From Candidatus Zhuqueibacterota bacterium (GTDB lineage Bacteria; BS750m-G25): a stretch of 13,802 nt of DNA. The translations under genes and the position numbers were made by a program. Below the pieces are notes generated by a model, which saw nothing but the letters and a program-made list of their open reading frames with translations, searched no databases and was not told the origin of the DNA. The stretch spans positions 1 through 13,802 of the forward strand of contig JADHWK010000057.1 in assembly GCA_016783505.1 (NCBI GenBank), given 5' to 3'. This document shows, piece after piece, positions 2,850 to 12,420 of the stretch; positions within the stretch are counted from its first letter, which is position 1; every line of letters begins with the position of its first letter.

Positions 2850-2961
2850 AGTGACTCCTCCGTAGAAGTTATCAGTAGGTCATGCTAAGAAGCTTGTAAA
2901 TTGCCTAAATTGCCAAAAATTCAAAAATTTTTATAATAATTCAAATAATTCGATGTAGCTT

Positions 2962-2989
2962 AATATATACACTGTTACAAACAGTGTAA
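2962..2989 (-). promoter_or_regulatory. Candidate promoter with operator palindrome, upstream of fmdB-like/nifS-selD
   Basis: On the minus strand a -35-like TTACAC (2989-2984) and a -10-like TATATT (2967-2962) are 16 nt apart. A perfect dyad ACACTGTTTGTAACAGTGT (8-bp arms, 3-nt centre, 2969-2987) overlaps the -35 element and fills most of the spacer, as repressor or MerR-like operators do. It lies about 110 nt upstream of the FmdB start. The cognate regulator is not identifiable here. Confidence 0.45.
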
Positions 2990-3031
2990 GATCATTAACC
3001 GGCGAGGTTTTGGAGTGAAGCGACCAGCCTG

Positions 3032-3078
3032 TCCCGATCATTCGGGATGTCGCTTCATGCATCCCGAACCTTCGGGAT
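3032..3078. repeat. Two TCCCGA...TCGGGA hairpins
   Basis: TCCCGA-TCAT-TCGGGA (3032-3047) and ATCCCGAA-CC-TTCGGGAT (3061-3078) are related inverted repeats 13 nt apart. They lie in the 270-nt gap between the aminotransferase stop and the FmdB start, which has no gene. They look like a small dispersed palindromic repeat, or part of a processing or termination region. Confidence 0.5.
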
Positions 3079-3092
3079 TACTGCAGGAGGAT

Positions 3093-3118
3093 TAGGATAG
3101 GAATTTATTCCTATCCTA
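3093..3118. terminator. Long hairpin directly after the aminotransferase gene
   Basis: TAGGATAGGAAT and its exact complement ATTCCTATCCTA form a 12-bp stem around a 2-nt centre (or a slightly shorter stem with a larger loop). It begins 1 nt beyond the aminotransferase stop codon. No run of U follows on the minus strand, so it may stabilise the 3' end rather than be a classical intrinsic terminator. Confidence 0.5.
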
Positions 3119-3119
3119 C

Positions 3120-4406
3120 CTAAGAGACAGAGTGGTTGCGAAAAAAATCCAAAACGTCCTGTAGCTTTTGTGACAATTTTTTAATGACATCCGGTGTCAT
3201 CCCGGCGTAACCAAAGCGGAGACATCCCGGAGCGCCGAATACGCTGGCGGGTATGACACTGAACTTTTCTAATTCCATAGCCTTTTCCACGAAGGTTCGG
3301 TCATCAACCTTTATATCATCAGGCAGTTTGGCAAGAACACTGATCGCTCCGGATGGAGTATCCTTGTCTCTTCCAGCTAAGGTAAAACCCTTGGCCTTGA
3401 GCACAGAAATCATCAGGTCCCGGCGTCTTTTGAGTTCTTCTTTAATCGCAGTGATAAACCCTGGAGGCCGATGGTTTTCGAGATCATTGACCTCGGGCCT
3501 CAGGATTTCAATCAACCTCCGTTGACCGAGGATATTGGGTGAGGAAGAAGAAGATCGGATAAGGTTTGGTATCCAGTGATTGGTGAACGATTTATTCGCA
3601 GACAATATATAGCCCACTCTGGCCCCCGGGATCAGGTATTCTTTCGAGGCAGAGCTTACAACAACCGTGCGCTCCGGGGCAAACCCCAGCATGGACTGCG
3701 GCTCACCCTCGTATCGCAGATAATTGTAAACCTCATCGGAGATGATGATCAGCCCCAGCCGCCGGGCAAGTATGGCCAGATTTGCCATTTCAGCATCGGT
3801 CAATACATCCCCCGAGGGATTAACAGGGAAATTGATCAGAAGAGAGGTTATGTTATGTGTTTTAATCACCCTTTCGGCGATCTCGGGACTGAAGTGATCA
3901 TTTTTATCAAACAGATTTACCACGATGGGGTTGCCACCGGCATTTCGGATGATACCCCGGTAATTACTCCAATAAAGTCTCATAAGACCGACATTCTGTT
4001 GGTAAGCAAACAGGCGCATAACAATCGCTAATCCCTCTGTAGCTCCGGAGACAATTGCTACATGGTTTTTGTCCAGTCCATCAGCGGGTATTCCAGGCCT
4101 CCCTTCCAGCCGATAAGCCAGGGTCCAGAATCTGGCGATCAACTCCCGCAGCTCTTCCAGCCCGGCGGTGGGACCGTAATAGATCTCTTTTTTCGGAAAA
4201 ATTCCCACAACCTGGCCCTGGTCACAGCGGATGAAGTCGGGGTTTTGGGCGGCAATGGCCTTTGCCCTTGCCACAACCGCCGGAATTATTGGCTCAGAAG
4301 CGATGGTCTCCCGCATCCCCGCAGGCATGAATTTCCAGGCACATTCCAAAAGAGGGGTTGCGTCTTCAGGATCTTTAACGACGTGCTCGAAGTTGTCATT
4401 CAACAT
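3120..4406 (-). CDS. PLP-dependent aminotransferase, class I/II
   Basis: A 428-aa fold-type I aminotransferase. Visible landmarks: YGPTAGLEELRELIARF in the N-terminal part, VSGATEGL at the cofactor phosphate site (about 119-126), NFPVNPSGD (192-200) with the conserved Asn, SDEVY (223-227) with the PLP-pairing Asp, SSASKEYLIPGARVGY with PLP Lys255, and LRFGYA near the C-terminus with the carboxylate-binding Arg. I chose the ATG at 4406 because AGAGGA lies about 8 nt upstream; an ATG at 4439 would add 11 basic residues, overlap the upstream gene and has no good ribosome-binding site. It follows the NifX-like gene by 20 nt, so the two are probably co-transcribed. Substrate is not predictable; aspartate- or alanine-type enzymes share these motifs. 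Confidence 0.88.
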   Translation of the reverse strand: MLNDNFEHVVKDPEDATPLLECAWKFMPAGMRETIASEPIIPAVVARAKAIAAQNPDFIRCDQGQVVGIFPKKEIYYGPTAGLEELRELIARFWTLAYRLEGRPGIPADGLDKNHVAIVSGATEGLAIVMRLFAYQQNVGLMRLYWSNYRGIIRNAGGNPIVVNLFDKNDHFSPEIAERVIKTHNITSLLINFPVNPSGDVLTDAEMANLAILARRLGLIIISDEVYNYLRYEGEPQSMLGFAPERTVVVSSASKEYLIPGARVGYILSANKSFTNHWIPNLIRSSSSSPNILGQRRLIEILRPEVNDLENHRPPGFITAIKEELKRRRDLMISVLKAKGFTLAGRDKDTPSGAISVLAKLPDDIKVDDRTFVEKAMELEKFSVIPASVFGAPGCLRFGYAGMTPDVIKKLSQKLQDVLDFFRNHSVS

Positions 4407-4426
4407 GCTATGTTTCCTCTGTTTCC

Positions 4427-4801
4427 TTAATGCTCGCATTCGGTTTTGTCAACCCCGTAGCCCTTTCCTGAACCGGGACGGCATAGGCTCTCACCCCCCT
4501 TAAGCTCGCCTTTGAGCAACATGTCAATTGTCTCGTCCACTTTACCAGTTATTCCTAGGACGAGTTGAATATTTTTTTCGTCAAAGAGCATTTGGGCCCG
4601 CTGGCCGGCCCCTCCGGCAATGACGGCATTGATCCCCATTTCGGCGAAGAATTGGGGCAGAAACCCCGGATGATGACCAGGATTGGCGATAACTTCTGTG
4701 TTTACTATTTTGCCCTCGTCGATCTCCACGACCGTGAAAGTTGGACACCTGCCGAAATGGGCGGAAACAAAATCACCGTCTGTAGAAACTGCTATTTTCA
4801 T
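4427..4801 (-). CDS. NifX/NifB-domain (dinitrogenase Fe-Mo cofactor biosynthesis family) protein
   Basis: A 124-aa single-domain member of the Fe-Mo cofactor biosynthesis family (PF02579), which in better-known members (NifX, NafY, ORP protein) binds metal-sulfur clusters. Diagnostic segments are MKIAVSTDGDFVSAHFGRCPTF at the N-terminus, NPGHHPGFLPQFF (40-52), VIAGGAGQRAQ (60-70) and the C-terminal tail with Cys107, GKGYG and the final ECEH. The Cys/His tail is common in short anaerobe members and could bind a metal. A clear AAGGAG site precedes the ATG. It heads a unit with the aminotransferase and follows the DUF169 gene after 172 nt. It lacks the DUF5320 extension seen on its paralogue at 11212-11874. 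Confidence 0.9.
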   Translation of the reverse strand: MKIAVSTDGDFVSAHFGRCPTFTVVEIDEGKIVNTEVIANPGHHPGFLPQFFAEMGINAVIAGGAGQRAQMLFDEKNIQLVLGITGKVDETIDMLLKGELKGGESLCRPGSGKGYGVDKTECEH

Positions 4802-4915
4802 TTGATTCTCCTTTTTTTAACATTGACAAATTAAATTTAACAATATTTAGTTTAATAATCCAGAGAATTCTTGATTTTTAACCTTGATTATAAAAATTTA
4901 TTTTTAATGCAGGGT

Positions 4916-4945
4916 GTAGATGCAAAAGCAGAGCTTTTGTACTAC
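4916..4945. repeat. Hairpin between DUF169 and NifX-like genes
   Basis: GTAG..CAAAAGC-AGA-GCTTTTG..CTAC forms a 7-bp core stem (4923-4929 with 4933-4939) extended by a second 4-bp GTAG/CTAC stem across a small internal loop. It is 28 nt past the DUF169 stop. The rest of this 172-nt gap is very AT-rich. The hairpin could end the upstream transcript, or be a dispersed palindromic repeat. Confidence 0.45.
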
Positions 4946-4973
4946 GGGGAATTTTTAATTTTGTTCTTTATCT

Positions 4974-5576
4974 TTATAAGAAAGTTTTCATTAGGACATA
5001 AGGCACGCCGACAACCAATCTGTCTCTAGGAATTTTACCGTAAAGACGGCTGTCGTCGCATCCGAAGGAGATCGAAATCTGTTGTGATAGATAGCTCCTC
5101 ACTGCAATGTTTCCACAAACGGACATTAGGCAGGAAACATCAGCATGTATGTTTTTACCCAACCGGGTTTGATGGTATTTAATCAGCCTCATGACCTGCC
5201 CTGGCTGGAGGTAAGAAATTAAAATATCAGGCAGTTCGTATGTGTTGAGCCCGATAGCGACAAGACGCTCCTTTAATCTGGGAACGCTTTCTATCATAGA
5301 CTTAACAACCCCTTCTGGTAGGTTTCGTTTCTCCTTGCATTCCTGGATAATCCTATTCTGGGCATATTTGTCCCAACCAAAAGCGTATTTTGCTCCTAAG
5401 CAGCTAATAGATGATTGGGTCAAGAAAACGCTTGAAGTTTTTGCCTTATGTAGCGCTTCGCAAAAACGAATATCCGTAGGAACCGCAGCACTTCCTATGT
5501 CTGGCATTTCCTTGTAAAATTTAACCCTCACCCATGACCCACCGAACTTTCTCGCAAACTTTTTTATATTCTCCAT
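4974..5576 (-). CDS. DUF169-family protein, 200 aa
   Basis: Matches the general layout of the uncharacterised DUF169 (PF02596) family: PTDIRFCEALHKAK (33-46), LTQSSISCLGAKYAFG (52-67), HADVSCLMSVCG (144-155) and SFGCDDSR (170-177). Conserved cysteines at 39, 59, 149, 154 and 173 suggest metal or cluster binding, but no function is established. AGAGGA lies about 7 nt before the ATG. It follows the MIP18-like gene by 33 nt, so it likely belongs to the MinD ATPase transcript. No signal peptide or membrane segment is evident. Confidence 0.75.
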   Translation of the reverse strand: MENIKKFARKFGGSWVRVKFYKEMPDIGSAAVPTDIRFCEALHKAKTSSVFLTQSSISCLGAKYAFGWDKYAQNRIIQECKEKRNLPEGVVKSMIESVPRLKERLVAIGLNTYELPDILISYLQPGQVMRLIKYHQTRLGKNIHADVSCLMSVCGNIAVRSYLSQQISISFGCDDSRLYGKIPRDRLVVGVPYVLMKTFL

Positions 5577-5609
5577 TATTGTCCTCTCATAACCGGTCTT
5601 TTTAAGAAC

Positions 5610-5897
5610 TTATTGACCTTCAGCCAAGATCTTTTCCAATTGCTCAGCGTGAATGAAACCTTCTACATTTATCCTCAAATCCTTTACACCCTCTACGCCC
5701 TTCACGGCCTGCTGAATAGCAAACCCCAGTTGAAATGCCAGGGGACATACCGGGGAAGAAGGCCTGAAAGTCAAGGAGACCCGGCCATTCTTCTCAATCT
5801 TCAGGTTTCGTATCAGCTCCATCCTCACGACATTAAGACCCGTTTCAGGGTCAATTACCTTTTCTAAGAAAGTTATTATTATCTGCTCAAGTTTCAT
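5610..5897 (-). CDS. MIP18/DUF59-family protein (PaaD/SufT-like)
   Basis: A 95-aa MIP18-family domain (DUF59), used in Fe-S cluster assembly and insertion in SufT, PaaD and eukaryotic CIAO2 proteins. It shows VIDPETGLNVV (14-24), the family's 'DPE' turn, VSLTFRPSSPVCPL (40-53) with conserved Cys51, and a C-terminal segment running VKDLRINV. The start at 5897 lies 1 nt after the stop of the MinD-like ATPase (TAG-T-ATG), with GGAAAG upstream. A TTG at 5921 would overlap the ATPase and is less likely. Pairing of an MIP18 domain with a MinD/Mrp-type ATPase is a recurrent theme in Fe-S assembly (Mrp proteins fuse the two), supporting a shared cluster-delivery role. Confidence 0.85.
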   Translation of the reverse strand: MKLEQIIITFLEKVIDPETGLNVVRMELIRNLKIEKNGRVSLTFRPSSPVCPLAFQLGFAIQQAVKGVEGVKDLRINVEGFIHAEQLEKILAEGQ

Positions 5898-5898
5898 A

Positions 5899-6765
5899 CT
5901 ATGGGCTTTCCAAAAACCCAATGATATTTTCCCAGATATTTCTGATTTCCTTGGTCACTACCCCGTCCGAGTATTCGATCACGGTTTTTCTGTGCACCAT
6001 GGCTTCGGTGACGATGGTGTCAAAGTGTATTCTACCTATAAAACCAAGCCCCTTGATGCGGCAGTAGGCCTCAATTTCCCGGGTCATCCCAGGATTTATG
6101 TCGAACTTATTTACACAGATCAGCGTTTTTATTCCAAAATGGGCTGCCAGGCTCACTACACGCTCCATATCATGCACACCGGAGAGGGAGGGTTCGGTCA
6201 CTACCAGTACACAGTCGGCCCCGGTGATCGAGGAGATAACCGGACAGCCGATACCGGGGGCCCCGTCCACGATGATGAGATCCTTTCCTTCTTTCTCGGC
6301 GATCAACCTGGCTTGATGTCGGACTAACGTCACCAGCTTACCCGAGTTTTCCTGCGCTATCCCCAGCCTGGCGTGCACCATGGGGCCGAATCGTGTCTCG
6401 GAGATAAACCATTCACCGGAGGTATTCTCCTGAAAATCTATGGCCTTTTCAGGACAAAAATATACGCACACCCCGCAGCCTTCACATGAAATCTTGTCCA
6501 CGACAAAATCATCGCTGATGGCATCGAAACGGCAGACTTCAAGGCATTTTCCGCATTCTGTGCACGAATCTTCATTAATGGATGCGGCCTTTCCCCCGGC
6601 GAAATCCTCCCTCAATTTTACCCTGGGCTCAAGGATAAGATGCAGATCAGCCGCATCCACGTCGCAATCGGCCATTACCTTGTTTTTTGCCAACGCAGCG
6701 AAACAGGCCGTTATGCTGGTCTTGCCAGTTCCGCCCTTGCCGCTGATTATGATTAGCTCTTTCAC
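5899..6765 (-). CDS. MinD/ParA-superfamily ATPase with inserted 2[4Fe-4S] ferredoxin domain (copy 1)
   Basis: A 288-aa P-loop ATPase. The deviant Walker A is SGKGGTGKT (8-16), and VVTEPSLSG with the VDGAPGIGCP segment marks the switch regions. A bacterial-type ferredoxin domain is inserted between: Cys68/71/74/78 and Cys94/97/100/104, each CxxCxxCxxxC. The same architecture occurs in the paired MinD ATPases of ORP complexes and in cytosolic Fe-S carrier-type ATPases. The start codon is GTG at 6765 with only a weak upstream GAAGA. It overlaps no gene and is followed 1 nt later by the MIP18-like gene. The two ATPase copies share the fold but differ clearly in sequence, consistent with a heterodimer. 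Confidence 0.93.
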   Translation of the reverse strand: MKELIIISGKGGTGKTSITACFAALAKNKVMADCDVDAADLHLILEPRVKLREDFAGGKAASINEDSCTECGKCLEVCRFDAISDDFVVDKISCEGCGVCVYFCPEKAIDFQENTSGEWFISETRFGPMVHARLGIAQENSGKLVTLVRHQARLIAEKEGKDLIIVDGAPGIGCPVISSITGADCVLVVTEPSLSGVHDMERVVSLAAHFGIKTLICVNKFDINPGMTREIEAYCRIKGLGFIGRIHFDTIVTEAMVHRKTVIEYSDGVVTKEIRNIWENIIGFLESP

Positions 6766-6831
6766 TCTTCAATCATCCGATTCTTCATATATGAGGAATC
6801 AATTTTTCGTAACTATTCAGTTGCAAAGACT

Positions 6832-6948
6832 CTAAGACACCAAGATTAGAACATAATAAAGAAACTGATAATTTCAGACCTTGTCAAATTGAGTCACACT
6901 GATAGGGGTTTAAATCTAATATTCCTTCGTTGTGCCTTGGTGTCTTAG
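6832..6948. repeat. Inverted pair of CTAAGACACCAAG repeats
   Basis: CTAAGACACCAAG at 6832-6844 recurs as its exact complement CTTGGTGTCTTAG at 6936-6948, 91 nt apart, with partial similarity extending outward (TTCAG on the left, CTGAA on the right). The pair occupies most of the 150-nt gap between the two ATPase genes. Its right arm lies inside the 3' end of the upstream ATPase frame. This resembles a small dispersed palindromic or non-autonomous element. Confidence 0.6.
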
Positions 6949-7788
6949 TGGCTGAACTATTTTTCTTTCTATCCTGGCAAAGAGCGATTGGAAGCGCTGT
7001 TTGTATTCCGGCATAATCTCGATGATGGGGATTCCCTTTGAATAGGCCTCGGCTATTGTTCTTTCGGTTTTTATCTCCATCAGAACGGGAATATTCTCTT
7101 GATTACAGTATTCGATTACCCCTTTATCCCCCACGTCCGAGCGGTTGATAACCACCCCAAAGGGGATTTTAAGGGTTCGGATCATCCCTACGGCGAGCAC
7201 CAGATCATTGAGACCAAATGGGGTTGGTTCGGTCACCAAAAGGGTAAAATCGCTCCCTTTCACTGCCTCGATGACCGGGCAGGAGGTTCCCGGTGGGGCG
7301 TCTATGATTGTCGTTTTTTCCCCGTTGATATGTTTCTTCACCGCCCTGATAAGAGGCGGTGACATGGCCTCGCCAATGCGCAGCCTCCCATGAATGAATT
7401 CCATTTCCCCCGCCAGCCCCTTCTCCACTACGCCCATCTCACGGTCTTTATCTGAAATCGCATCTTCCGGACATACCAGCGAACACCCGCCGCAGCCGTG
7501 ACAGAGTTCAGGAAAGGTCAGGACATTTTTTTTGATAACCACGATGGCACTATATTGGCATATCTGGCCGCATTTGCCGCAGTAAGTGCAGATGGATTTA
7601 TCAACTTCAGGAACCGGGATTCCGATGATTCTCGTTTCCTGAAAATCGGGTTTTAAAAATATGTGGGCGTTGGGTTCCTCAACATCGCAGTCGAGAAACA
7701 GAACATCTTCCTTTAAAGAAAGGGCGAGATTGGTAGCTACGGTGGTCTTGCCCGTCCCGCCCTTTCCACTGGCAACAGAGATTACCAT
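6916..7788 (-). CDS. MinD/ParA-superfamily ATPase with inserted 2[4Fe-4S] ferredoxin domain (copy 2)
   Basis: A 290-aa partner of the ATPase at 5899-6765. Walker A is SGKGGTGKTT (7-16), IDAPPGTSCPV is the switch segment, and LLVTEPTPFG follows. The inserted ferredoxin has Cys67/70/73/77 and Cys96/99/102/106. Adjacent pairs of such ATPases are typical of ORP loci in anaerobes, where they are thought to work with NifX-like proteins on a metal-sulfur cofactor. The ATG is 3 nt after the stop of the 64-aa gene. The last dozen or so residues (VQPLRHQGTTKEY) are encoded by one arm of an inverted repeat, so the native C-terminus may have been replaced. Confidence 0.93.
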   Translation of the reverse strand: MVISVASGKGGTGKTTVATNLALSLKEDVLFLDCDVEEPNAHIFLKPDFQETRIIGIPVPEVDKSICTYCGKCGQICQYSAIVVIKKNVLTFPELCHGCGGCSLVCPEDAISDKDREMGVVEKGLAGEMEFIHGRLRIGEAMSPPLIRAVKKHINGEKTTIIDAPPGTSCPVIEAVKGSDFTLLVTEPTPFGLNDLVLAVGMIRTLKIPFGVVINRSDVGDKGVIEYCNQENIPVLMEIKTERTIAEAYSKGIPIIEIMPEYKQRFQSLFARIERKIVQPLRHQGTTKEY

Positions 7789-7791
7789 ATT

Positions 7792-7986
7792 TCATCCAAA
7801 ATATCGCTTGATCAATCTCTCGGCATAGTTTTTAAGGAAATTATAGAGGATTTCACTTTTACAATCCTCTGCAAATTTACGGCAGACGCTTTCCTTCAGA
7901 TTAATCGCTTGTTCCTTCGATTTGCAGGCCTTAATCTTTTTTTCTATGCCTGCCCAATGTTTCCTAACCTTTTCTTCCGGTCTCAT
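7792..7986 (-). CDS. Small conserved-looking protein, 64 aa, unknown
   Basis: I do not recognise a family. The protein is Lys/Glu-rich and probably helical, with three cysteines (CKSKEQAINLKESVCRKF and AEDCKSE). Its ATG overlaps the stop of the upstream DUF1858 gene as ATGA, and its stop is 3 nt before the MinD ATPase. This tight packing argues for a real, translationally coupled gene. It may be an accessory or adaptor to the ATPase. Confidence 0.7.
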   Translation of the reverse strand: MRPEEKVRKHWAGIEKKIKACKSKEQAINLKESVCRKFAEDCKSEILYNFLKNYAERLIKRYFG

Positions 7987-8189
7987 CTCAGTTGCTTGTT
8001 CAGTTCTTCCACTAACTGCTCGATAGTCTCATCATCCATACCCTTTTGTTGGGCGTTGTCCTCCAGTGTTCCCCATACCGGTGCTCCGCAGGCAATACAT
8101 GTGATGCCCTTTTCCATGAGAAATCGGACCGATTGCGGATACACTTGGATCAGGTCTTCAATGAAGATGTTCTTGTTAATCCTGACCAT
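7983..8189 (-). CDS. DUF1858-domain protein, 68 aa
   Basis: Matches the DUF1858 (PF08984) pattern: an N-terminal helix, then VYPQSVRFLMEKGITCIACG (17-35), with the CxxC pair Cys31/Cys34, then a C-terminal helix. The family is small, soluble and found mostly in anaerobes. A redox or cluster-binding role is suggested by the CxxC but unproven. The ribosome-binding site is weak. It is coupled to the following 64-aa gene through an ATGA overlap. Confidence 0.85.
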   Translation of the reverse strand: MVRINKNIFIEDLIQVYPQSVRFLMEKGITCIACGAPVWGTLEDNAQQKGMDDETIEQLVEELNKQLR

Positions 8190-8205
8190 GAGTCTATCTG
8201 TTAAG

Positions 8206-8231
8206 AAGTGGGGTCAAAAACAACCCCACTT
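8206..8231. terminator. Strong hairpin between DUF5320 and DUF1858 genes
   Basis: AAGTGGGGT and ACCCCACTT form a perfect GC-containing 9-bp stem with an 8-nt loop (CAAAAACA on the plus strand). It lies in the 69-nt gap between the two genes. On the minus strand it is followed by CTTAACAG, a poor U tract, so partial termination or an RNA stability/processing element fits better than a full stop. Confidence 0.55.
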
Positions 8232-8258
8232 TTGCTCACCCTTCACCTTTAGCTGTTC

Positions 8259-8657
8259 CTACTTTTTGGGAGATGTTCCGATCTCCTTGATGCGGTTATT
8301 GATGGCGTCGAGCTGACCTTTCAGGTATTCAGCCTGGCTCCTCAGTTGATCAACCTCTTGTTGAGTAGTCATCTGCGGTGTGAAAGCTGCTCCGCCATAT
8401 CCCACAGGATAGGGAGCCATTCCATAGCCTTGAACAGGGGGAATCCCATAACCGGCATACGGCATCCCGCCAAAGCCAAAATATGGATACCCAGTGAAGC
8501 CCCGAAGGCTCCTGCCGCGACCACGACCGAACCCCAACCCCAGTCGGGGAGATACCGGATTTGCGAATCCGGGCGCAGGATAACCGGCGCAGTATCCAGC
8601 AGCTCTACCCGTCATTGGACCCATTCCCATTGGTCCAGTTCCGTTTCCACCTGGCAT
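8259..8657 (-). CDS. DUF5320-like Gly/Met/Tyr-rich protein with C-terminal coiled coil
   Basis: A 132-aa low-complexity protein. It starts MPGGNGTGPMGMGPMTGR, the DUF5320-type N-terminal signature, then has a Gly-, Arg- and Tyr-rich middle. The last ~40 residues form a predicted coiled coil (EVDQLRSQAEYLKGQLDAIN, then RIKEIG). The same C-terminal module occurs in the proteins at 11212-11874 and 11871-12236. I chose the ATG at 8657 because AAGGAGGT lies about 8 nt upstream; a GTG at 8666 would overlap that site. Such proteins commonly neighbour NifX-like and MinD-like genes in anaerobes; function is unknown. It ends 69 nt before the DUF1858 gene. Confidence 0.8.
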   Translation of the reverse strand: MPGGNGTGPMGMGPMTGRAAGYCAGYPAPGFANPVSPRLGLGFGRGRGRSLRGFTGYPYFGFGGMPYAGYGIPPVQGYGMAPYPVGYGGAAFTPQMTTQQEVDQLRSQAEYLKGQLDAINNRIKEIGTSPKK

Positions 8658-8716
8658 GAAAATCACCTCCTTCCATTAAGCTTTTGTATAATTGGTTCAG
8701 ATATTCTGCAACGTTC

Positions 8717-9133
8717 TTACCATTTTCTCCCCCTTCCCCGGCCCTGTCTTTTTCCCCGGCCCCTTCCCATGCCACCCCTACGGCCCATCCCTATCCGTTC
8801 AAAGGGGCCTGGTACGTGCTGAATGGGTGAGAGGGGAAAACCCCCTGTCCTCGTCAGAGGTGGGGGAAAGGCCGGAGCGCCCATCGGTTCAACAGTTGGC
8901 GAGTATGGGAGCTTCCCCATTTCAATTTCATCTTGGTCTGTTGATTCCGCTGCTATGATGGGCACCTGGTATTGGAGGGCGTTGTTGGGGCAGGTGTTAA
9001 GGCAAGCCCCGCAGTCATTGCATTTGGAGCCATCTATCTCGGCTTTGCCGTCTTCAAGATAGATGGCCCCCCAGGGGCAGGTGTCCACACAGGCCCCACA
9101 GCCGGTGCACGATTGCAGGTCAATCCAAATCAT
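8717..9133 (-). CDS. 2[4Fe-4S] ferredoxin with Gly/Arg-rich C-terminal tail
   Basis: A 138-aa protein. Residues 1 to about 55 are a bacterial ferredoxin with Cys9/12/15/19 and Cys38/41/44/48, both CxxCxxCxxxCP. Residues from about 55 are a Pro-rich linker and a tail ending in GRGKRQGRGRGRKW. Electron transfer is the known role of the domain. The tail is unusual for a ferredoxin and resembles the Gly/Arg stretches of the DUF5320-type neighbours, suggesting interaction with RNA, acidic partners or the same complex. The ATG follows the zinc-ribbon stop by 1 nt (TAA-T-ATG), with GAGGGA upstream. Confidence 0.88.
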   Translation of the reverse strand: MIWIDLQSCTGCGACVDTCPWGAIYLEDGKAEIDGSKCNDCGACLNTCPNNALQYQVPIIAAESTDQDEIEMGKLPYSPTVEPMGAPAFPPPLTRTGGFPLSPIQHVPGPFERIGMGRRGGMGRGRGKRQGRGRGRKW

Positions 9134-9134
9134 A

Positions 9135-9353
9135 TTATTCCCTCACCATCTTGGCCCCGCATTTGGGGCAGCTTTGCTTGTAACAGGGAACCGCCCTTTG
9201 ATGGGGTGCCGTGGCGCCGCAACTGGGGCAGACACAATTCCCTCCCAGCCCTGATCCCTGGCCTCCCATGCGTCCCCTGCCGCCGCCCCGTCCTAAACCA
9301 CGTCCCGTTCCCGGACCGGCACCGGCGGGTCCTGTTCCGTTTCCTCTCGGCAT
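9135..9353 (-). CDS. Gly/Arg-rich small zinc-ribbon protein, DUF5320-type N-terminus
   Basis: A 72-aa protein. It begins MPRGNGTGPAGAGPGTGRG, the same N-terminal signature as the protein at 8259-8657, then a Gly-rich stretch, then a cysteine domain: CVCPSCG (40-46), PCYKQSCPKCGAKM (56-69). Six cysteines (40, 42, 45, 57, 62, 65) could hold a zinc or Fe-S site. The start at 9353 has AAGGAGGT 7-8 nt upstream; an in-frame ATG at 9371 would sit before that site and is rejected. It heads a unit with the ferredoxin and DUF5320 genes. Confidence 0.82.
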   Translation of the reverse strand: MPRGNGTGPAGAGPGTGRGLGRGGGRGRMGGQGSGLGGNCVCPSCGATAPHQRAVPCYKQSCPKCGAKMVRE

Positions 9354-9389
9354 TTTGGTCACCTCCTTCAATTAATAGATAAACATCTA

Positions 9390-9415
9390 GCCCGAAGGTC
9401 TCCTGACCGAAGGGC
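9390..9415 (-). promoter_or_regulatory. Leader hairpin upstream of the zinc-ribbon/ferredoxin unit
   Basis: On the minus strand GCCC(TTC)GGTC-AGGA-GACC(TTC)GGGC can fold into a stem with a 3x3 internal loop, ending 36 nt before the zinc-ribbon start. It lies in the 216-nt gap between the FmdB stop and that start, which has no other gene that I can support. It could be a leader structure or partial terminator. Confidence 0.3.
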
Positions 9416-9569
9416 AATAGATTTATAAAAGTTTGGGGTTTCGGTGAGACACCTTAACCCTAGTGAGATAGGTTACCTCCTTCACTACCTCTCAGAATTT
9501 CTAAAACTAATTGATGACAACTGAATAAGCAATTAGCTATCAGCCCTTTTCTGATTCCTTACTTCGAAA

Positions 9570-9824
9570 TTATTTGCCACAACACCGCTTCGGATTGTCG
9601 CAGGGATTGGTGATCCCACAGCATTCGGCTTGTTCGGGGGTTTTTCTGCGATAATCAGTTTCATAAAACCCCGATCCCTTAAAAATGATTCCGGTTCCCC
9701 CGCTGATTATCCTCCTGACTTCACCTTCACATCTCGGGCAATACTTTAGGGGGTATTCAGTTATCTTTTGAAACCTGTCAAATTGATAACCACAGTTTAA
9801 ACATTGATATTCATAGGTAGGCAT
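9570..9824 (-). CDS. FmdB-family zinc-ribbon protein, 84 aa
   Basis: Starts MPTYEYQCLNCGYQFDRFQ with Cys8/11 and Cys29/32 (CPRC), then the IISGGTGIIFKGSGFYETDY segment typical of longer FmdB-like proteins. The C-terminus adds a Cys-rich tail with Cys68/69/75/81/82 and ends RCCGK, reminiscent of metal-binding tails. The ATG is 1 nt after the MBL-gene stop, with GGAG about 8 nt upstream, so it is co-transcribed with the MBL lipoprotein. Its paralogue lies at 2649-2849. Function is not established; a regulatory or cofactor role is only inferred. Confidence 0.88.
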   Translation of the reverse strand: MPTYEYQCLNCGYQFDRFQKITEYPLKYCPRCEGEVRRIISGGTGIIFKGSGFYETDYRRKTPEQAECCGITNPCDNPKRCCGK

Positions 9825-9825
9825 T

Positions 9826-10662
9826 TTATTCTCCTATTGTGATTGTCCTTCCAACCCCCAATTCCAAGAAATTTTCCCTATATGCTTCCCGGAATAGCTG
9901 TCTGGCTCTATCCCCGGAGCAGTGAGAGGGGCCAGCCTGGAGAACCCCCAGTTTTTTGAAGTCAGCGATAATTCGTCTTATTTCTCCCTCGCTCGTTCCA
10001 CCCAGATGGAAACCGCCCATAACCAACACGGGGTTTCCCCCAACCAATCGCTTTGATTTATTCACTATTTTTACCACTCCCGGATGGGCACAGCCGGTTA
10101 TGATCACGGGTCCTTTTGGGGTTTTTAGTATCAGCGATTGTTCCTTTATCCATACGCCGAGCTCACCGGTGGAATACACATTATCGAAAAGCTCTCCGGA
10201 CTTGTGCACCTCTTCGACCTTGGCACCAAAAGATCTTACTTCATCTTTGAAACTTAGCGGAAAGGATTTCGGCAGGTACACGGTTACCCCTGAGTTTCGC
10301 TTCAGAAAACCGGATAGCCCCCCCACATGGTCACCGTGGATGTGGGACAACACCACCGCATCTATTTCCTTGGGTTTGATTTTAAGTTGCTCCATGTTAT
10401 ATAGCAGGGTAGGACTATCCCCGCCGGTGTCGAACAGTATGTTTTTTCCCCCAAACCTTATTAGACATGAGAATCCCCAGGCAGTCCTTAGTGAACTGTC
10501 ATAGGGATTGTTGTCGTAGATGATAATAATTGTCAAATTTTCCAGAGACATGTTTGCCTTTTTATAATGATCTTTCGGATTCCTTTCTCCACCGGCGCCA
10601 CAGTTGAGGAGGACCACCAATGATAGAGCAACCATAGTCAAAAAGGCTATCTTTTCCATCAT
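9826..10662 (-). CDS. MBL-fold metallohydrolase, predicted lipoprotein
   Basis: A 278-aa metallo-beta-lactamase-fold protein of the COG1237-like type. Core motifs: WGFSCLIRF (62-70), LFDTGGD (76-82), SHIHGDHVGGL (106-116) with the HxHxDH metal site, TGCAHPG with His193, and GGFHLGG with His219. The N-terminus is hydrophobic with a lipobox VVLLNC (Cys21), so it is probably exported and lipid-anchored; most family members are cytoplasmic. ATG at 10662 or the adjacent one at 10659 could both be used. It is preceded by a Fur-box-like dyad and followed by the FmdB gene. The substrate is unknown; pterin-related phosphate-synthase annotations exist for the family but should not be assumed. Confidence 0.85.
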   Translation of the reverse strand: MMEKIAFLTMVALSLVVLLNCGAGGERNPKDHYKKANMSLENLTIIIIYDNNPYDSSLRTAWGFSCLIRFGGKNILFDTGGDSPTLLYNMEQLKIKPKEIDAVVLSHIHGDHVGGLSGFLKRNSGVTVYLPKSFPLSFKDEVRSFGAKVEEVHKSGELFDNVYSTGELGVWIKEQSLILKTPKGPVIITGCAHPGVVKIVNKSKRLVGGNPVLVMGGFHLGGTSEGEIRRIIADFKKLGVLQAGPSHCSGDRARQLFREAYRENFLELGVGRTITIGE

Positions 10663-10680
10663 TTCCGTTTCCCATTCTAT

Positions 10681-10695
10681 TGAAAATTATTTTCA
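10681..10695. promoter_or_regulatory. Fur-box-like 7-1-7 palindrome
   Basis: TGAAAATTATTTTCA is a perfect 7-1-7 inverted repeat differing from the classical Fur/PerR-type core (TGATAATNATTATCA) by one symmetrical base pair. It lies between the Fur-family gene and the MBL gene, ending 19 nt before the MBL start. A -35-like TTTACC and a -10-like TTCAAT or TAGAAT flank it on the minus strand, so binding would likely block transcription of mbl-fmdB. Confidence 0.65.
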
Positions 10696-10710
10696 GTAAA
10701 GGGTAAAAAA

Positions 10711-11154
10711 TTAATCTGAGGCGCATTGTTTGCAATATCCAAATAGTGTGAGCTCATGATCGATTATTATGAACCTGTGTTCTTGGGATAATTTTTCTGC
10801 CAGATGGTTTAGCTGGGGAAAGAAATCGGATTCGAAATCTATTAGTTTCCCACATTTCACACAGACGAGATGGTGGTGATGGGTATCCTTATTTCCGTTC
10901 GTGATGTTAAGCTCATAACGATAGGTTCCCTCACCAAAATCAAATTTTTTAATCAGCCTCATTTGGGTAAGGGCGCTAAGGGTACGATAAATGGTCGCCA
11001 GGGATACTCTTGACCTTCTTTTTTGCAGAAATCGGTAAAGGCCCTCAGCGGTAAAATGGGGTTCGACTTTCTGTAATGAATCTGTGATAATCGACCGCTC
11101 GAGGGTTACCCTGTAGCCCTTTATTCCCAGAGCATCCATTAACCGGTTTGCCAT
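10711..11154 (-). CDS. Fur-family metalloregulator
   Basis: A 147-aa Fur/PerR/Zur-type repressor. The N-terminal winged-helix ends in the recognition helix VSLATIYRTLSAL (50-62). The C-terminal dimerisation domain has THHHHLVCVKCG (91-102) with Cys98/Cys101 and CKQC (141-144) with Cys141/Cys144, the structural zinc site. His-rich regulatory metal ligands are present, but Fe, Zn, Ni, Mn or peroxide specificity cannot be decided here. The ATG at 11154 follows GGGGAAG at good spacing; a TTG at 11169 is possible but weaker. It is 57 nt after the NifX-fusion gene and directly upstream of a Fur-box-like site, so it may control the MBL/FmdB genes. Confidence 0.93.
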   Translation of the reverse strand: MANRLMDALGIKGYRVTLERSIITDSLQKVEPHFTAEGLYRFLQKRRSRVSLATIYRTLSALTQMRLIKKFDFGEGTYRYELNITNGNKDTHHHHLVCVKCGKLIDFESDFFPQLNHLAEKLSQEHRFIIIDHELTLFGYCKQCASD

Positions 11155-11211
11155 TTTTGTCTTCCCCAAACTGAACTTCAGATTTTTATCTTGGGAATCC
11201 CCGCCATTTTA

Positions 11212-11874
11212 CTATTCCCCTTTTTTCTTTCCCAGCTCGTTTATCCTCTTGCTAATGGCATCCAGTTGCTGCTTCATAAGATCGGCCTGCTGCTTTAATA
11301 GCTGAAGTTCCTGATCCGGGGTTGTTGGACCTGCACCCGGTGCCGCAGGCCCCGTTCCCGGAACGCCGGGCATGGCACCGTAGCCCACCTCAGGCAATCC
11401 ACCCCCGCCCATTCCTCGACCCATCCCTCTGCCCATTCCTCGCCCCATACCCATTCCGAAACCGGGTCCCATAGGCTGTCCCTGGCCGCCTGCCTGGCCA
11501 GGCGTGCCCGCACCCATCCCGAAATGGGCCTGCACATTGGGCTGGGCGGTGGGCTTAAGCTGACCGGATTTGTACCTTTGAATGGCATCCTGCACCGATC
11601 CTACGACGCCGATAATTACCTGAACACCGGCGGCTTGTAAGGTCTGGAAGGCGTTGGGGCCGCAGCTCCCGGTGAGCACCGTCTCGGCACCCTTGTCGGT
11701 AACAAACTGGGCCGACTGGATCCCAGCCCCTCCCATCGCGGCAACATTGGGGTTTTCAACGGCCTCAAATTGCAGCGTGTCGGGATCTACGAAGATGAAA
11801 TATGGACATCTTCCAAATCGGGGGTCAACCTGGGCCGCCAGATCAGTCCCTGCTGAGGTAATGACGATTTTCAT
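11212..11874 (-). CDS. NifX-domain protein fused to a DUF5320-type Gly/Met-rich coiled-coil tail
   Basis: A 220-aa two-part protein. Residues 1 to about 110 are a NifX-type Fe-Mo cofactor biosynthesis domain: MKIVITSAGTDLAAQVDPRFGR, CPYFIFVDP, NPNVAAMGGAGIQSAQ and TGSCGPNAF (Cys71). Residues about 115-185 are Gly/Pro/Met-rich, including four GMGR-type repeats, and residues about 185-220 are a coiled coil (TPDQELQLLKQQADLMKQQL then ISKRINELG). The tail matches the C-terminal module of the proteins at 8259-8657 and 11871-12236. Its ATG overlaps the upstream gene's stop as ATGA. The NifX domain is expected to bind a metal-sulfur cluster; the tail likely mediates assembly with its DUF5320 neighbours. 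Confidence 0.92.
   Translation of the reverse strand: MKIVITSAGTDLAAQVDPRFGRCPYFIFVDPDTLQFEAVENPNVAAMGGAGIQSAQFVTDKGAETVLTGSCGPNAFQTLQAAGVQVIIGVVGSVQDAIQRYKSGQLKPTAQPNVQAHFGMGAGTPGQAGGQGQPMGPGFGMGMGRGMGRGMGRGMGGGGLPEVGYGAMPGVPGTGPAAPGAGPTTPDQELQLLKQQADLMKQQLDAISKRINELGKKKGE
11408..11455. repeat. 12-nt tandem repeats encoding MGRG units
   Basis: Four 12-nt units (CCCATTCCTCGA, CCCATCCCTCTG, CCCATTCCTCGC and a diverged CCCATACCCATT on the plus strand) encode the GMGR repeats of the NifX-fusion protein on the minus strand. The units are similar but not identical, so the tract could vary in copy number between strains. Confidence 0.7.
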
Positions 11875-12236
11875 TTTTTCTCTCCTTCTAATTCCTTCAT
11901 TCGATCCTTAATACCCTCCAGTTGGTCTTCTAAGATCTCAGCCTGTCCTTTCAGCATTTCCAGTTCCTGTTCCGGTGTGCTCTGGGCGGCTCCCCAGGGA
12001 TCGTAAGGGGTGGGAAATCCAGGCATAGGAAAGCCCGGAGACTGGAACGCATAGGGGACCTGCCCGCTCTGCCAGAGGGCATCCATCTGCGGAGTGGGCC
12101 AATAGCCGTACATCAAATATTGTGCAGCGGGGCCAAGCCCTGTGGGACTCCTGCCGATCCAACCCGGGCTGAACCCGAACCGCATCCATCCAGGCAGCCC
12201 AGTCATTCTGTACCACCACCGATGTCTGTTACCCAT
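11871..12236 (-). CDS. DUF5320-like protein with Trp/Pro/Gly-rich N-terminus and coiled-coil C-terminus
   Basis: A 121-aa protein. The N-terminus (WWYRMTGLPGWMRFGFSPGW, then SPTGLGPAAQYL) is a recurrent pattern in small anaerobe proteins next to NifX-like genes. The C-terminal ~35 residues (STPEQELEMLKGQAEILEDQ, then LEGIKDRMKELEG) are the coiled-coil module shared with two neighbours. A strong AGGAGGT site precedes the ATG. It is the first gene downstream of the sigma-54-type promoter and is coupled to the NifX-fusion gene by an ATGA overlap. Function is unknown. Confidence 0.8.
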   Translation of the reverse strand: MGNRHRWWYRMTGLPGWMRFGFSPGWIGRSPTGLGPAAQYLMYGYWPTPQMDALWQSGQVPYAFQSPGFPMPGFPTPYDPWGAAQSTPEQELEMLKGQAEILEDQLEGIKDRMKELEGEKK

Positions 12237-12294
12237 TTCTATACCTCCTTTTTACTAAATATCCTTTCGATTTTAAAGTCTCCTTAGTAAATAG

Positions 12295-12310
12295 GCAATC
12301 TTTATGCCAA
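12295..12310 (-). promoter_or_regulatory. Sigma-54 (-24/-12) promoter candidate
   Basis: The minus strand reads TTGGCATAAAGATTGC. This fits the consensus TTGGCAC-N5-TTGC with the exact spacing (GG at 12308-12307, GC at 12296-12295, 10 nt between). Only one consensus position (T for C after TTGGCA) differs. The predicted start point is near 12284, leaving a leader of about 48 nt before the DUF5320 gene at 12236. ORP operons in Desulfovibrio are sigma-54 controlled, which matches this location. Confidence 0.75.
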
Positions 12311-12386: not shown

Positions 12387-12420
12387 TTTCACATTTGAAA
12401 TGTTTATTTCAACATTGAAA
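12387..12420. promoter_or_regulatory. Tandem TTTCA-N4-TGAAA dyads, candidate enhancer (UAS)
   Basis: TTTCA-CATT-TGAAA (12387-12400) and TTTCA-ACAT-TGAAA (12407-12420) are two near-identical dyads whose centres are 20 bp apart, close to two helical turns. They lie about 100-135 bp upstream of the predicted sigma-54 start point, a usual distance for binding sites of NtrC-type activators. The whole block is itself a 36-bp imperfect palindrome with GTTTCA/TGAAAC ends. Between the TonB receptor stop and the DUF5320 gene (248 nt) I see no gene. Confidence 0.6.

Follow-up and report, generated by a model that had tools for sequence, protein, structure and literature searches.

A conserved array of MinD-ferredoxin, NifX and DUF5320 genes related to ORP loci on a contig of a Candidatus Zhuqueibacterota bacterium

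The window analyzed here is the entire contig JADHWK010000057.1 (13,802 nucleotides; our C74) of a 60%-complete metagenome-assembled genome (MAG) of a Candidatus Zhuqueibacterota bacterium (assembly GCA_016783505.1). It carries an array that combines two MinD-ferredoxin ATPases with NifX-type and Gly-rich DUF5320-type proteins, and 19 genes follow one another on the minus strand, 16 of them within positions 3120–12236. Domains were called with Pfam and NCBIfam models. The named domains were verified at their coordinates, all on the minus strand, in agreement with an initial annotation that had described a same-strand array of these families from the sequence alone. Read in the minus-strand direction, the succession begins with a partial TonB receptor gene; the remaining genes and two promoter-like elements are, in order:

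12387–12420, no strand: dyad pair TTTCA-N4-TGAAA, 20 base pairs apart, candidate enhancer (activator) sites from an inverted-repeat search
12294–12309, minus: sigma-54-type −24/−12 site TGGCATAAAGATTGCC, about 74 nucleotides before the first ATG
11871–12236, minus: DUF5320-like protein a, 121 residues (PF17253, 26 bits at a cut-off of 27), with a good ribosome site
11212–11874, minus: IssA/IssX-like fusion of NifX with a Gly/Met/Arg-rich DUF5320 tail, 220 residues (PF02579 and PF17253)
10711–11169, minus: Fur-family regulator (PF01475, E 5e-30)
9826–10662, minus: MBL-fold hydrolase with an N-terminal extension, a possible signal peptide (PF00753)
9570–9824, minus: FmdB-type zinc ribbon (PF09723)
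9135–9371, minus: open reading frame of Gly-rich DUF5320-like protein b, with a four-cysteine zinc ribbon at its end (PF17253, 24.7 bits at a cut-off of 27)
8717–9133, minus: 2[4Fe-4S] ferredoxin with a Gly/Arg-rich cationic tail (isoelectric point (pI) of the tail, 11.2)
8259–8666, minus: DUF5320 protein c, 135 residues (PF17253, E 1e-22)
7983–8189, minus: DUF1858 protein with a CxxC motif, 68 residues (PF08984)
7792–7986, minus: basic protein of 64 residues with no assigned family, overlapping the DUF1858 gene by 4 nucleotides and ending 3 nucleotides before MinD-a
6916–7788, minus: MinD-ferredoxin ATPase a (domain search; AlphaFold model, pLDDT 89.5)
5899–6765, minus: MinD-ferredoxin ATPase b (domain search)
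5610–5921, minus: MIP18 protein (FeS_assembly_P), overlapping MinD-b by 23 nucleotides
4974–5576, minus: DUF169 protein of a short subfamily with four invariant cysteines (domain search, tree and alignment)
4427–4801, minus: stand-alone NifX/ORP-type protein, 124 residues (PF02579; C-terminal part of the MrpORP model NF041136)
3120–4439, minus: pyridoxal phosphate aminotransferase (PF00155), overlapping NifX by 13 nucleotides
2649–2849, minus: second FmdB protein (domain search)
412–2619, minus: NifS-SelD fusion (cysteine desulfurase and selenophosphate synthetase, Cys form)

Both FmdB zinc ribbons lie where the initial annotation had placed them, the second outside its span of 3120–12236. It had counted three DUF5320-type proteins, one of them fused to NifX; the family and the fusion are present, but the products number four, two of which (a and b) fall just under the Pfam cut-off. 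It had also missed the 64-residue gene. Protein a ends in a coiled-coil-like helix that is common to other DUF5320 proteins. Protein b probably starts at the ATG at 9353, giving 9135–9353, and its relatives adjoin MinD in two loci (L183 and L181) and are fused to NifX in another (L042). Several neighboring genes overlap or touch, and gaps of 150–270 nucleotides occur at 9372–9569, 6766–6915, 4802–4973 and 2850–3119. These gaps leave room for internal promoters, and the array may therefore represent several transcripts.

The array is genuine and is repeatedly conserved across many anaerobic bacteria and archaea. Homologous loci were gathered with an alignment of MinD-a, from genomes related to the MAG at the domain level only. 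The 80 named loci come from Thermodesulfobacteriota, Myxococcota, Bacillota, Chloroflexota, Planctomycetota, Omnitrophota, Bipolaricaulota and several archaeal groups. A second MinD gene adjoins MinD-a in nearly all of these loci, and about 75 contain NifX-type genes. Scattering of the genes in relatives, which the initial annotation had named as the refuting outcome of a neighborhood search, is not what these loci show.

For 40 whole genomes, genes lying within 8.4 kb of MinD-a were compared with a uniform expectation. Near the MinD pair were 49 of 65 DUF5320 genes (0.5 expected; counts based on a Pfam search), 12 of 50 MBL genes (0.4 expected, 32-fold), 15 of 106 FmdB genes (0.8 expected, 20-fold) and 9 of 80 Fur genes (0.6 expected). 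The enrichment ranges from 16- to 100-fold for these four families and from 16- to 33-fold for MBL, FmdB and Fur. Because the expectation ignores the clustering of genes within a locus, and because the nearest relatives of MinD-a supplied the loci, the p-values are a rough guide only; the fold differences are large. A chance cluster is ruled out by this enrichment, and the earlier proposal that DUF5320, MBL, FmdB and Fur belong with the MinD pair is borne out.

The aminotransferase, DUF1858, the second FmdB and NifS-SelD showed no clear recurrence among the examined loci. A same-strand relative of the aminotransferase lies close by in one locus only (L058), and its membership in the system is uncertain; no recurrence of DUF1858 was seen among the 80 loci. 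No homolog of the 64-residue protein was found in these loci either, and its gene was rejected as an equivalent of the small genes that precede MinD-a elsewhere, which encode other proteins. Of the partners that the initial annotation had added to the ORP-like set, MBL, FmdB and the MIP18 and DUF169 subfamilies therefore recur, whereas the aminotransferase and the second FmdB do not clearly do so. Partner sets also differ between clades of the MinD-a tree. This variation, the division of the array by the 150- to 270-nucleotide gaps and the lack of clear recurrence of the aminotransferase and DUF1858 would agree with a system made up of the core genes only (DUF5320, NifX, ferredoxin, MinD pair, MIP18 and DUF169), with MBL, Fur, FmdB, the aminotransferase and others as co-controlled neighbors that have separate jobs. 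We consider such a restricted system improbable, given the 16- to 33-fold enrichment of MBL, FmdB and Fur beside the pair and the existence of a cluster-linked Fur clade.

Further iron and Fe-S genes accompany the array elsewhere. In a Pfam tally of 123 unlabeled neighbors, NifU-like genes were the commonest (present in 27 of the 80 loci), followed by Radical SAM, DUF364 (“heavy-metal chelation”) and DUF134. FeoB of a single subfamily adjoins the cluster in four loci (L042, L056, L061 and L110), and proteins of Mrp size whose N-terminal part is an FeS_assembly_P domain lie near the MinD pair in three genomes (G070, G073 and G094). On contig C7 of genome G068, DUF5320 genes stand together with Fur and MBL at about 49100–56800, and no MinD pair was found on that contig; these three families may also occur as a group that lacks the pair.

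MIP18 and DUF169 are rare near the MinD pair but are of subfamilies that recur there. Across the whole Pfam family, 1 of 43 DUF169 genes lies near the pair (0.26 expected, not significant). A family-wide enrichment was thus rejected, and the link is confined to the short subfamily. The DUF169 protein of the window is 44% identical to an Omnitrophota homolog encoded directly after MinD-b (L050), and the two form a clade with 100/100 support that excludes 20 further genomic DUF169 proteins. A search of 386 further genomes yielded five sites, in four genomes, that reached E 1e-22. Two of these lie inside MinD/NifX/DUF5320 arrays (L178 and L181), a third has MinD-b and NifX at a distance of about 5 kb (L180), and at the other two (L179 and L182) there is no MinD pair nearby. 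In L090, a distant DUF169 gene follows MBL in the same run. The four cysteines are invariant in the alignment, and the AlphaFold model of the window protein (pLDDT 91) gave no match and no functional hint in a fold search of the PDB.

A stand-alone MIP18 gene follows MinD-b in L078, L097, L109 and L114. In the MIP18 tree, the proteins of these four loci and of L105 form one clade, and the MIP18 of the window is nearest to it (46% identical to L114). Enrichment of FeS_assembly_P was discarded as support for stand-alone MIP18, as the three near matches are Mrp-sized (334–352 residues); the link rests on the subfamily tree and not on the Pfam count. Six cluster-linked Fur proteins from at least four phyla form one supported clade, and the Fur of the window falls outside it, so that its membership in this clade is not supported; trees of 20–28 short proteins such as these have limited resolution. 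The initial annotation had called the MBL protein a lipoprotein. The MBL fold is present, but the lipoprotein call depends on the atypical lipobox LLNC in an N-terminal extension, and the cluster-linked MBL homologs compared lack this extension. From the sequence, it is possible that an internal ATG yields the usual cytosolic form.

MinD-a and MinD-b each carry a Walker A motif, two CxxCxxCxxxC motifs and a ninth cysteine at DxxPGxxC. This cysteine follows the Walker B aspartate by seven residues, and the strict pattern is found in 68 of 81 MinD-a and 68 of 72 MinD-b sequences. In the nitrogenase Fe protein, Cys-132 ligates the bridging cluster. The aspartate-to-cysteine spacing of the MinD pair matches the Asp-125 to Cys-132 spacing of that protein. 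The AlphaFold model of MinD-a shows a fold match to MinD, Mrp (ApbC), Cfd1 and ATPase-type HypB. The ATPases of the window are related in their P-loop fold to the Fe-S carriers of the Mrp/NBP35 (ApbC) family, with which they also have a MIP18 partner and an Fe-S context in common; they differ in their ferredoxin insert and in forming two tandem paralogs, and the window contains no Mrp. The Nitro_FeMo-Co domain is likewise shared with the nitrogenase cofactor proteins NifX, NafY and NifB, whereas no nif structural gene or NifB lies within the window.

The fold match to ApbC and Cfd1, the MIP18 subfamily tied to the locus, the NifU-like genes in 27 loci and the Mrp-sized FeS_assembly_P proteins near the pair would all suit an Fe-S assembly and delivery pathway without storage. 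In that case, the MinD pair would be carriers in the manner of Mrp/NBP35 and NifX a transient carrier, and MIP18 and the zinc ribbons would be adaptors to the targets. Such a pathway leaves the four Gly-rich DUF5320-type products and the linkage to Fur and FeoB unexplained, and we regard it as fairly unlikely.

The site TGGCATAAAGATTGCC has one mismatch to TGGCAC-N5-TTGC in the scored core (strict scan) and is assigned to sigma-54 by sequence match. Across all loci, sites with at most one mismatch occur within 120 nucleotides upstream of 9 of 86 NifX/DUF5320 genes, compared with 0 of 311 other same-strand genes; when only loci with an activator gene are counted, the figure is 7 of 18 (window included). 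The two TTTCA-N4-TGAAA dyads lie about 75–110 base pairs upstream of the site, and the window contains no others; when the region was shuffled 3000 times, a pair of dyads with an identical arm never arose. Activator sites of the Desulfovibrio vulgaris orp operons lie at −131 and −88 (PMC3897727), and the dyads of the window are at a similar distance and in the same layout.

All eight tested neighbors of about 390–490 residues beside related clusters are sigma-54 activators, and the loci with an adjacent activator fall within the same MinD-a tree. No sigma-54 activator gene lies on the contig of the window. The best match to the cluster activators in the MAG is on contig C48 (480 bits, 327 bits for the next). 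This contig (L191, 1–5260) carries a sigma-54 activator, Fur, FeoB and the N terminus of a TonB receptor on one strand, and the TonB fragment runs off its end. Since the TonB receptor of the window is truncated at its 5′ end and lacks the N terminus that C48 supplies in a compatible orientation, C48 may adjoin the right end of the window and thus lie directly upstream of the array; there is no sequence overlap between the two.

The initial annotation had called the array ORP-like. With the Desulfovibrio ORP proteins (Orp3, Orp4, Orp5, Orp8 and Orp9), it shares paired MinD-type ATPases with two [4Fe-4S] motifs each, NifX/ORP-type proteins (PF02579 in two window proteins; match to the D. gigas ORP structure 2WFB, E 4e-20) and, by sequence match, a sigma-54 promoter-like site with upstream palindromes. 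However, the Mrp-NifX fusion MrpORP is missing from the window, and NF041136 covers the window NifX proteins over the NifX part only. ORP genes form two divergent operons with an activator gene beside them, whereas the genes of the window all lie on the minus strand of a contig that has none. The window further adds DUF5320 proteins, the tailed ferredoxin, FmdB, Fur, MBL, MIP18 and DUF169. The likeness therefore stands as kinship: without the Mrp-NifX fusion and the divergent operons, the array is not classed as ORP.

In a strict ORP complex, a Mo-Cu-sulfide cluster would sit on the NifX proteins, and the MinD pair would help to position the septum or have a polar role, the functions suggested for Desulfovibrio. 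The match to 2WFB, the ferredoxin domains of the MinD pair, the promoter-like site with its dyads and the shared MinD-a tree of the activator-adjacent loci are consistent with such a complex. It is nevertheless unlikely in our view: besides the missing fusion, the single direction of transcription and the lack of an activator gene on the contig, the Fur, FeoB and NifU partners indicate iron.

The NifX-DUF5320 fusion links the array to a second known group. IssA binds thioferrate and combines a NifX domain with a cationic tail rich in Gly, and the IssX clade comprises uncharacterized, high-pI, Gly-rich relatives from non-thermophiles (Vaccaro 2017, PMC5524996). The fusion resembles both in that a cationic, Gly-rich tail adjoins its NifX (IPR003731) domain on the C-terminal side. 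The Gly part of its tail contains 41% Gly and has a pI of 10.7, equal to that reported for the IssA tail; the whole tail has a pI of 9.8. Against the PDB, the NifX domain matches best to MTH1175 (1EO1, E 1e-21), a protein assigned to the IssA clade (Vaccaro 2017, PMC5524996). The fusion differs from IssA in sitting in an array with MinD-ferredoxin ATPases.

With about even confidence, we propose that the array is an iron/sulfide-responsive island for anaerobic iron-sulfide handling, related to ORP and to IssA-type storage. The Fur, FeoB and NifU neighbors, together with the IssA-type tail, favor iron and sulfide over an unspecified metal. The initial annotation had suggested a dedicated assembly or metal-sensing pathway; the neighbors narrow the metal, and the pathway itself is still a proposal. 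Iron–sulfur transfer in vitro into the Orp3/Orp4 proteins, the counterparts of the MinD pair, has been described (PMC6345978). In D. desulfuricans, Ddes_1864–1867 (annotated as NifX, MinD-like, Fe-S and NifX, and placed in the MinD/NifX family by annotation) are 12- to 40-fold lower during growth on nitrate than on sulfate; FeoA is also lower, FeoB less so (PMC5701242). These findings, the NifX/IssA likeness, the tails and the MinD motifs favor an iron-sulfide store whose loader is driven by ATP and electrons.

From the gene content, its recurrence, the promoter-like elements and the conserved motifs, all observed here, we infer the metal, the storage, the electron flow and the order of steps as follows. 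With ample iron and sulfide, an anionic iron-sulfide species would nucleate on the NifX domain of the fusion and be held by the cationic, Gly/Arg/Met-rich tails that the fusion has in common with the tailed ferredoxin and the DUF5320 proteins. The C-terminal helix common to DUF5320-type proteins could bring these proteins together. The two MinD ATPases, each with a 2[4Fe-4S] ferredoxin insert and the extra cysteine after Walker B, may as a pair load or mobilize the stored material in an ATP- and electron-driven manner. They may also hand Fe-S units to MIP18, DUF169 and the zinc ribbons, which would serve as adaptors for the proteins targeted. A sigma-54 promoter with an upstream activator would control expression, together with the Fur regulator.

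Several observations weigh against an iron-sulfide store under this control. The match of the NifX domain to the Mo-Cu protein ORP (E 4e-20) is almost as good as that to IssA-type MTH1175, and by our count a NifX protein with a Gly-rich tail is present in only 26 of 75 loci. Aromatic residues reportedly make up 14 of 70 positions (20%) in the tail of Pyrococcus furiosus IssA, compared with 4% Phe, Trp and Tyr in the Gly part of the window tail. The window tail also ends in a helix-like segment, common to DUF5320 proteins, whereas no such terminal helix has been reported for IssA. A scan for a consensus Fur box gave none, and rpoN was not found in the 60%-complete MAG.

On a wider view, which we hold to be fairly unlikely, a modular iron-sulfide condensate system would be common to anaerobes of both domains. 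A helix-sharing, Gly-rich DUF5320/NifX store would be charged and discharged by the redox-linked MinD-ferredoxin pair under sigma-54 and Fur control, with ORP and IssA as two manifestations of a single system. The array bears on how strict anaerobes store iron without the oxygen-dependent chemistry of ferritin and on what the ORP complex does, as it connects ORP-type ATPases with IssA-type proteins, Fur and FeoB. With partner subfamilies (short DUF169, MIP18 and DUF5320) and a candidate promoter named, experiments in a cultured relative could address both. The initial annotation had supposed the set to be undescribed, and in the open-access literature we found no paper describing it, or DUF5320 in this context; as subscription papers were mostly outside the search, this is weak evidence.

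Rfam and tRNA scans of the window gave no matches. At the far end of the succession, the NifS-SelD gene belongs to a type of fusion already on record (Mariotti 2015, PMC4561486). Several inverted repeats, perfect or nearly so, lie at 2968–3118, in the 270-nucleotide gap that separates the aminotransferase gene from the second FmdB gene.

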